Origin: Nitrosospira briensis C-128 | Lineage (GTDB): Bacteria; Pseudomonadota; Gammaproteobacteria; Burkholderiales; Nitrosomonadaceae | Assembly (NCBI RefSeq): GCF_000619905.2 | Contig: NZ_CP012371.1 | Span: 2,542,001 to 2,606,000, forward strand | DNA length: 64,000 nt | Direction: 5' to 3' | Shown here: positions 8,528-54,029 of the stretch, piece after piece | Numbering within the stretch: the stretch's first letter is position 1 | Layout of the letters: each line of letters starts with the position of its first letter | Made by a program: the position numbers and the translations under genes | The notes under the pieces: model-generated | The model's database searches: none | What the model was told of the DNA's origin: nothing | Seen by the model: only the letters and a program-made list of their open reading frames with translations

Positions 8528-8760
8528 GTCCGTCCAGTTTTGCTCAGTAGGGACAGACTGTGGCTGCAGCGGCATCAGAGGAAAGGACGCAACGATGTGA
8601 ATAGTCGATTCTTTTCGACAGCAACCCAACCAGGCAAGATTGCCTGGGCTGCCTTTGAAGGATGCCTTATAGGTAAGCGGTACATTGGGTGCGCTCATTA
8701 CGTTAAATTTCTGACCTCATGGTCAAGCATCATTATCAGGCTGCAGCCTGTTACTGATCG

Positions 8761-8838
8761 TAAATCCGGTAGTTGACCGCTCATTTGATAAATCAATGAT
8801 TAATAATAATATTTCACCCGGTCCAACTACCGAATTTA
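8761..8838. mobile_element. Short MITE-like element (copy 1 of the AAATCCGGTA repeat family)
   Basis: A 78-bp element with terminal inverted repeats: TAAATCCGGTAGTTGACCG on the left, and TAAATTCGGTAGTTGGACCG read inward from the right. The centre is AT-rich (GATTAATAATAATATTTCA). Both ends and the AT-rich stretch match the two ends of the 382-bp element at 53644-54025, so this is an internally deleted form. It lies in the 373-bp gap (8528-8900) between the adaptor and outer-membrane factor genes, where I see no other gene. Confidence 0.75.
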
Positions 8839-8900
8839 GGATGATTTGCATCTGGCAAAATATCGCCGAGTCATTTCCGATGCATCGAGGATGACGAAAA

Positions 8901-13284: not shown

Positions 13285-13490
13285 ACGAGACGGCACGGCG
13301 CTACATTGTAACTCCTTGGAATGAAATGGCCCCCGAAAAGCGTCGCACGAGGGACCCGGCATCCCGTTTCGTGGTCGCACCTATCCCGCAGAAGGCACTG
13401 CTCCGCCCTGCGCGGTCGCATTCGGCGTCGTTGCGCCTCACCCCGCACTCCAAAAACCGCTCACTCCATCCGTCAAACTGCCGGCGTCGG
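13285..13490 (+). mobile_element. GC-rich dispersed repeat (copy 2 of the AAATCCGGTA family, one end eroded)
   Basis: In the 525-bp gap after tyrosinase. The run from the TTGTAACTCCTTGGAATG block through GCATCCCGTTTCG, GAAGGCACTGCTCCGCCC and CCAAAAACCGCTCACTCCATC to CGTCAAACTGCCGG matches the 53.6-kb element read on its minus strand. About 65 bases are missing in the middle. The AT-rich left terminus is not convincing here. I see no gene in this gap. Confidence 0.75.
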
Positions 13491-36229: not shown

Positions 36230-36470
36230 CCTGATTCAGCAGTTGACTCCTCATTTTTCAGCTTGGTGCCATGCTTAACAAACAATTTTTGCTCCACTCG
36301 ATTTTCACTTTCCTGGCGAGTTCGCTACGGGGAGAGGGAGGATTACGCGGTTTTTATGACGAACGGCCGTGTTGCAACTCTTTGGAATGCAGCCACCGCC
36401 CCGCGTCGTTGCGCCTTGCCCTGCACCCTAAAAACCGCAAACTCCACCCTATCCAATTGCCGGGTTCCGG
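36230..36470 (+). mobile_element. Degenerate AAATCCGGTA-family repeat (copy 3), abutting dut
   Basis: The left end CCTGATTCAGCAGTTGAC plus CCTCATTT parallels CCTAAATCCGGTAGTTGAC-GCTCATTT of copy 1. The interior has GTTCGCTACGGGG, GTGTTGCAACTCTTTGG and GCGTCGTTGCGCCTTGCC, then CACCCTAAAAACCGCAAACT. The right end CCTATCCAATTGCCGGGTT parallels the 53.6-kb copy. About 170 bases of the long form are missing in the centre. It forms the whole gap between dut and the DUF192 gene, and its right end supplies the probable start of the latter. Confidence 0.7.
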
Positions 36471-53628: not shown

Positions 53629-53643
53629 CGGTTTTATCTAACC

Positions 53644-54025
53644 TAAATCCGGTAGTTGGACGGGGTGAAGTGTACGGTTTTTGGGGTGCAGGGCAAGGCG
53701 CAGCGACGCGGAATGCGACCGCGCAGGGCGCAGCAGTGCCTTCCGCAGGAAGGTGCGACCCCGAAGCGGGATGCGGGCGCCCCCTTGCGTGTGAAGCGCG
53801 ATCGCGGCATCCCCTGCGCTGCCCGATCCCCGCTGCGCGGGGTCCCCTCGGGCGACGCTTCGGGGCGCCGTTCCATTCCAAGAAGTTGCAACGCAGCCAT
53901 GTGCCGCAAAAACTGTGCAATTCACCCCGTAGCGCCCTCATCTGGAAGGTGAGCGTCAAATAATATGAAATATTGTTATTAATCATAATACTGATCTATT
54001 AGATGAGCGGTCAAATACCGGATTT
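53644..54025 (-). mobile_element. Full-length MITE-like element (copy 4 of the AAATCCGGTA family)
   Basis: 382 bp bounded by TAAATCCGGTAGTTGGAC at 53644 and, inverted at the right end, CAAATCCGGTATTTGACC (54025 inward). The right part is AT-rich (AATATTGTTATTAATCATAA) and matches the centre of the 78-bp copy. The rest is GC-rich, with internal hairpins such as CCTTCC-gca-GGAAGG, and matches copies 2 and 3. It carries no transposase; the frames through it are chance. It fills the gap between yciI and bolA. Confidence 0.8.
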
Positions 54026-54029
54026 GGGT

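Follow-up and report, generated by a model that had tools for sequence, protein, structure and literature searches.

A MITE family of Nitrosospira briensis C-128, its probable IS1380-like partner transposase and the separate repeat at its apex

The chromosome of Nitrosospira briensis C-128 harbors a family of MITEs, which are very probably moved in trans by an IS1380-like transposase at palindromic 5-bp sites, with a GC-rich core spreading along with them, as judged from comparison of their ends, flanks and relatives. This core, whose nature as a separate repeat was missed by the first-pass annotation of the same DNA, is found in frame in two conserved genes of other bacteria. The window, as the whole 64-kb stretch analyzed is called here (positions 2542001-2606000), belongs to the host chromosome, a single 3,210,113-bp contig. 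The subject matters for how gene-less small repeats spread and for how selfish DNA enters conserved proteins without destroying them, the latter being treated mainly for Rickettsia in the available text of PMC10969869 and PMC2229807. In the open-access literature, nothing was found that joined Nitrosospira with miniature inverted-repeat, searches on Nitrosospira genome, insertion sequence and repeat returned no title on this element, and IS1380 with miniature inverted repeat led to Paracoccus and dog E. coli only. Among the top entries listed for IS1380 with MITEs or ISEcp1 and for palindromic elements in genes, no title concerned such an element in this order, a statement about titles and the beginnings of abstracts and not about absence from print.

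Copies, boundaries and insertion sites

The full-length copy of the window has the ends CCTAAATCCGGTAGTTG and CCCAAATCCGGTATTTG, and the 17-bp ends of the family were defined as CCTAAATCCGGYAGTTG. The elements terminate in CCT...AGG, and their ends begin with CCTAAATCCGG. Consequently, the limits first proposed for the long and the short element (53644-54025 and 8761-8838) had to be moved outward to those listed in Table 1. It had also been claimed that these two elements have both ends in common and that the short one is the long one without its interior; both points were borne out by alignment to the 386-bp consensus, of which the short copy retains only the two outer segments. Two further stretches had been described as GC-rich interiors. 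That at 13285-13490 does contain core sequence, within a truncated MITE copy of slightly different extent, but 36230-36470 represents the core-less form, in an old copy whose two ends have decayed. The repeat family noticed by the first-pass annotation is therefore real and its observation partly confirmed, the copy count, the boundaries and the reading of the 36-kb copy being wrong.

Table 1. Positions of the MITE copies, target-site duplications and related repeats (window coordinates unless a locus is named)
Feature	Position	Strand	Basis or context
Full-length MITE with core, 387 bp	53642..54028	+	97% identity with the consensus (386 bp) derived from 24 copies
Left target-site duplication TCTAA, differing from the right one at a single base	53637..53641		Flank reading
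Right target-site duplication TTTAA; overlap with the YCII-domain stop codon	54029..54033		Flank reading
GC-rich core, separate repeat of ~150 bp at the MITE apex	53715..53868	+	Core-less copies; core without MITE elsewhere
82-bp deletion derivative of the MITE, flanks CTGAT / ATGAT	8759..8840	-	Consensus 1-28 + 324-386
Truncated MITE copy, core partly retained	13291..13484	-	Consensus 8-148 + 196-264
Old diverged core-less MITE, both ends decayed	36230..36470	-	Consensus 5-70 + 232-374 detected
cycA-side MITE-like ends	L089 3381-3492 (112-bp old copy), L090 ~1352, L091 ~1877		Own genome
Second palindromic repeat family carrying the core	L233-L241 and L072 (G005), L228 (G016)		

The full-length copy separates two minus-strand genes: it is inserted at the stop codon of one with a YCII domain (PF03795), and 13 bp lie between it and the start of the other, a BolA gene (PF01722). 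Folded as DNA, the whole element reached -106.4 kcal/mol vs -72.8 kcal/mol in 100 shuffles (z -8.1), and the MITE body is able to form a single long hairpin. The 18-bp end pattern occurred four times in the window vs 0.49 expected, a number reached by none of 100 shuffles, and Rfam at gathering thresholds gave no match within the window.

Genome-wide, the count of four copies given at first turned out to be a large underestimate. With up to three mismatches, the 18-bp end pattern returned 93 + 93 matches in the genome (186 in all) vs 15 + 6 (21) for the reversed control, which suggests about 80 elements at two ends per element. The long element as query yielded at least 51 matches (40 of 93 candidates scored), and at least 10 core-less copies matched only its positions 1-76 and 230-391. 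These dozens of further copies refute the possibility, raised beforehand, that no others exist. From loci selected by match quality, 53 distinct copies were recovered, a sample that favors well-preserved ones. The sizes of the 51 end pairs listed, including two with a right end in common (L035) and the remnant next to the hao cluster, were distributed among 82-151 bp (8 pairs), 235-244 bp (13) and 327-388 bp (30); copies of 82-388 bp are too short for a transposase, which supports the non-autonomous nature proposed for them. Since the 24 full copies are only 83-96% identical (mean, 92%), nothing points to a burst in the very recent past.

Target-site duplications, which had been proposed as a check, are present. 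The 5-bp flanks of the 53 copies were identical in 34, differed by one mismatch in 12, the window copy included, and were worse in 7; when left and right flanks were re-paired (2000 trials), exact matches averaged 5.5 and reached 13 at most, vs the 34 observed. All 34 exact duplications, 20 of the type TTNAA and 14 of the type ATNAT, had T at position 2, A at position 4 and complementary outer bases, and no wider palindrome was seen over 20 positions on each side of the insertion sites. Among duplication lengths of 1-10, matches appeared only at 5 (34 copies) and at 2 (21 copies), and the latter can follow from the ATNAT type, which has AT on either side. Of the 24 end pairs listed for relatives, some of which are chance pairs, 7 had exact duplications, all 7 with complementary outer bases. 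Empty orthologous sites were also looked for, for the full-length window copy alone: all 22 other genus genomes (22 of 22) gave an alignment of its site, in each of them the flanks adjoined, and the closest empty site (G009, 93% over 798 bp) contained a single TTTAA. Exact duplications and a clean empty site are marks of transposition. The second possibility raised beforehand, copies always at orthologous positions and never an empty one in relatives, therefore does not hold for this copy. The element is a real MITE: it is short, ends in inverted repeats, shows target-site duplication and empty sites, and lacks a transposase gene.

Three hao/cycAB-type clusters exist in this genome, as described in the available text of PMC4964001, in whose main text, as far as available, words beginning with transpos-, insertion or mobile occur 0 times. 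In all three (664.9, 915.9 and 1890.4 kb), a MITE-like end precedes the cycA-like gene and thus probably predates the copying or homogenization of the clusters. End-like sequences 1.7 kb apart at 661.5-666.5 kb were considered as a possible autonomous element and proved to be a remnant beside a hao/cycAB cluster and no transposon. Neither the element nor the core matched the plasmid collection, and the element had no match in the phage collection.

The candidate partner transposase and the ends of the MITE

ISEcp1, a member of the IS1380 family with ends beginning in CC and 5-bp repeats, was the starting point of the partner search. PF13701 matches were found in 6 of 23 genomes of the genus, the own genome contributing fragments only (2695897-2696218), and no MITE ends flanked the PF13701 matches of these genomes. 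The degraded fragments of the own genome (L111) lack recognizable MITE-type ends, and a separate 144-bp MITE occurs at locus L114 of G002. Two candidates were discarded: the five 407-aa transposase genes of G021, whose elements have other ends (CACTGCTGTCCCA), and an intact PF13701 element of G016 (L109 27-1518, duplication TTAAT), whose ends CCCAGATTTTCCAT are unrelated.

The exact MITE end was present in 5 of 399 genomes of the order, the own genome included. A single one, of MITE type, lies near a contig end beside a 488-aa open frame in G186 (L151 103-119). In a Gallionellaceae genome (UBA2239, G058), two ends enclose a 1476-bp element with a decayed transposase, and one of these ends is 17/17 identical to the MITE variant CCTAAATCCGGCAGTTG. 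The transposase pieces matched IS1380 models weakly; one of them, used as query, led to 49 loci in named genomes and, in the plasmid collection, to one record, from Polaromonas. IS1380-like elements with similar ends, mostly of ~1650 bp, were thus found in Dechloromonas, Thauera and Accumulibacter. Both ends, CCTAAAAACCKCAGTT or variants, were identified in 24 of the 49 loci, and 13 of these 24 elements showed exact 5-bp duplications, all NTNAN, in which the outer bases were complementary in 4 of 13 cases vs 34 of 34 for the MITE. For five full transposases, all above the PF13701 cut-off, IS1380 was the best NCBIfam family with 131-156 bits; as these scores are below the cut-off of 180, the subgroup is termed IS1380-like and not a member of IS1380. 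The kind of ends and the 5-bp duplication that characterize these elements are also those of the MITE, whose 17-bp ends show 3 to 5 differences from those of the intact ISs.

A profile built from 15 IS1380-like transposases found nothing in the own genome; elsewhere it matched G003 (a decayed member), G002 (a fragment) and G016 (the differently ended element). In the collections searched, there was no intact subgroup transposase with Nitrosospira ends. The partner is therefore lost or elsewhere, and the own-genome copies are probably either fossils or reliant on an intermittently present transposase. The suggestion that a partner exists elsewhere thus holds insofar as similar-ended IS1380-like elements do encode a transposase, but none of them is intact with exactly these ends.

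The MITE body was also detected in two other families of the order, with the ends CCTAGAAACCGCGGTTG in G035 (flanks ATTAT) and CCTAGAAACCTTAGTTG in G038, both of which resemble the IS ends more closely than those of Nitrosospira do. The ends therefore differ between hosts while the body stays, a pattern that may indicate that MITE ends track the local transposase and could be re-tuned to another one. In a third family, G145 (L154 1501-1737) has a complete MITE that lacks the core, with the duplication ATGAT and an end of Nitrosospira type; this genome is 86% complete, and its MITE represents a transfer or a binning error.

In the proposed mechanism, a transposase of the IS1380-like subgroup would recognize the 17-bp MITE ends in trans and would promote insertion at TTNAA or ATNAT sites followed by their duplication, as the ends and the duplications suggest. 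The GC-rich repeat of ~150 bp at the hairpin apex would have spread with the MITE, core-less copies and internal deletions being the other forms.

Two other explanations were weighed against this mechanism. The strong hairpin, together with the fact that rejoined insertion sites fell within an open frame of at least 200 aa in 3 of 53 copies and in none in the other 50, could befit a structural or regulatory repeat, such as a terminator or a protein-binding or REP-type site, spread by recombination. This reading is very improbable and largely refuted by the exact duplications in 34 of 53 copies and by the clean, single-copy target of G009. It is also improbable, to a lesser degree, that the transposase of a different IS family moves the MITE and that the likeness of its ends to those of the IS1380-like elements is convergence. 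The divergence of the ends noted above, the stricter symmetry of the MITE duplications and the lack of an IS1380-like partner in the own genome would agree with such convergence, but the NTNAN duplication of 5 bp, the CCT start and the AGTTG inner part all coincide, a decayed IS bears an exact MITE end, and the same MITE body is found with more IS-like ends in two other genomes.

The IS1380-like partner favored here can be compared with described elements. According to the available part of PMC3281130, IS1247 of the IS1380 family has 1672 bp, inverted repeats of 16/13 and a 5-bp repeat. The similar-ended elements resemble this family in length, in duplication size and in a transposase assigned by PF13701 and by the best NCBIfam match; unlike it, the MITE has no transposase, the subgroup lies below the NCBIfam cut-off, and exact MITE duplications are strictly palindromic. 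With the bacterial MITEs covered in the accessible text of PMC10969869, the family shares short size, terminal inverted repeats, target duplications and a presumed partner IS elsewhere, whereas a second repeat at the apex, and ends that vary between hosts around a conserved body, set it apart.

The GC-rich core as a separate repeat

Core matches were obtained in 15 of 200 genomes of the order, the own genome included; the order is that of the window's genome, which we take to be Burkholderiales in GTDB. Because E-values were calculated per genome, the weakest matches among the 14 other genomes (~1e-4 to 6e-4) may be due to chance. Within the genus, the core occurs without a MITE as head-to-tail units of ~149 and ~144 bp in G010 and of ~152 bp in G016. 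It is also found inside a second palindromic repeat family (Table 1), in which ten aligned G005 loci share the left end TAAGGAAGCGCTGAATAAATC or close variants, L236 and L239 gave the right end, and G016 contains a variant in which both ends are present. Outside the genus, the whole MITEs of G035, G038 and G145 are all devoid of the core, but the G168 locus described below speaks against a simple rule that confines the combination to the genus.

Full cores were identified within two conserved genes. In a UbiH/UbiF-family hydroxylase gene of G038 (L244), the core encodes residues 244-290, i.e., 47 residues vs 2 in solved homologues, and its alignment to the core consensus comprised 153 columns, 117 of them identical, with a score of 152 vs at most 39 in 200 shuffles. 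In rlmN of G068 (L249), it encodes residues 214-260, again 47 residues vs 0 in the best solved homologue, 3rf9, with 104 identities in 148 columns and a score of 111 vs at most 34 in 200 shuffles. Both cores lie on the same strand and in the same reading frame, and no MITE ends were seen at either. Thus, the core is a separate repeat, present in frame in two unrelated conserved genes. The sequence comparisons further suggest that the core may move by itself and that the MITEs may carry it.

The six reading frames were each open in 18 to 25 of 28 cores, vs 45% in base shuffles. The consensus fold of these 28 aligned cores predicted 15 pairs, 3 of them with two-sided change, which is weak, and the window core folded alone as DNA gave z -1.0, with 34 of 200 shuffles as good.

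We lean towards the view that the core is an independently mobile element of ~140-154 bp, similar to the Rickettsia palindromic elements (RPE), which would enter conserved genes in frame, form tandems between genes and occupy the apex of at least two palindromic families that spread it. Alternatively, the core could once have been the interior of a MITE, later carried off and duplicated with no mobility of its own, which is possible but rather doubtful. Tandem arrays can arise by slippage or recombination, no target duplication was seen at the core edges, and a core of G168, a genome outside the genus, is flanked by sequences resembling the inner arms of the MITE, with no MITE ends seen, all of which would suit a former interior. 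Such an origin is harder to reconcile with full cores in the UbiH/UbiF-family gene and in rlmN of other families, devoid of visible MITE ends, with the presence of the core inside the second repeat family, and with the three whole MITEs outside the genus that have no core.

For the independently mobile core, the closest parallel is the RPEs, with sizes of 105-146 bp and ~150 bp in the available text of PMC2229807 and PMC10969869. Like RPEs, as far as they are described there, the core has about the same size, has mostly open frames and is found both in frame in conserved genes and between genes; unlike them, it is seen in the order of the window's genome and also occurs inside MITEs and in tandem arrays. 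It therefore appears to behave like an RPE, a likeness in behavior by which membership among RPEs is not claimed. An RPE-like repeat, in size and behavior as given in those texts, is thus seen in other bacteria with a plausible vehicle, namely MITEs with an identifiable type of partner transposase. If the core is indeed mobile, it would represent protein-coding selfish DNA outside Rickettsiales whose vehicle is visible.

The in-frame case rests on the full cores of G038 and G068, and the matches of G071 and G115 are half-cores only. These occur in opposite orientation, in G071 within the open frame of a GGDEF/EAL protein and in G115 within that of an Mrp-type antiporter gene, there twice and with a spacing of 141 bp. 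In the latter genome, two 141-bp in-frame tandem units with half-cores are located between the MbhE and MnhB domains (L252, ~1500-1860).
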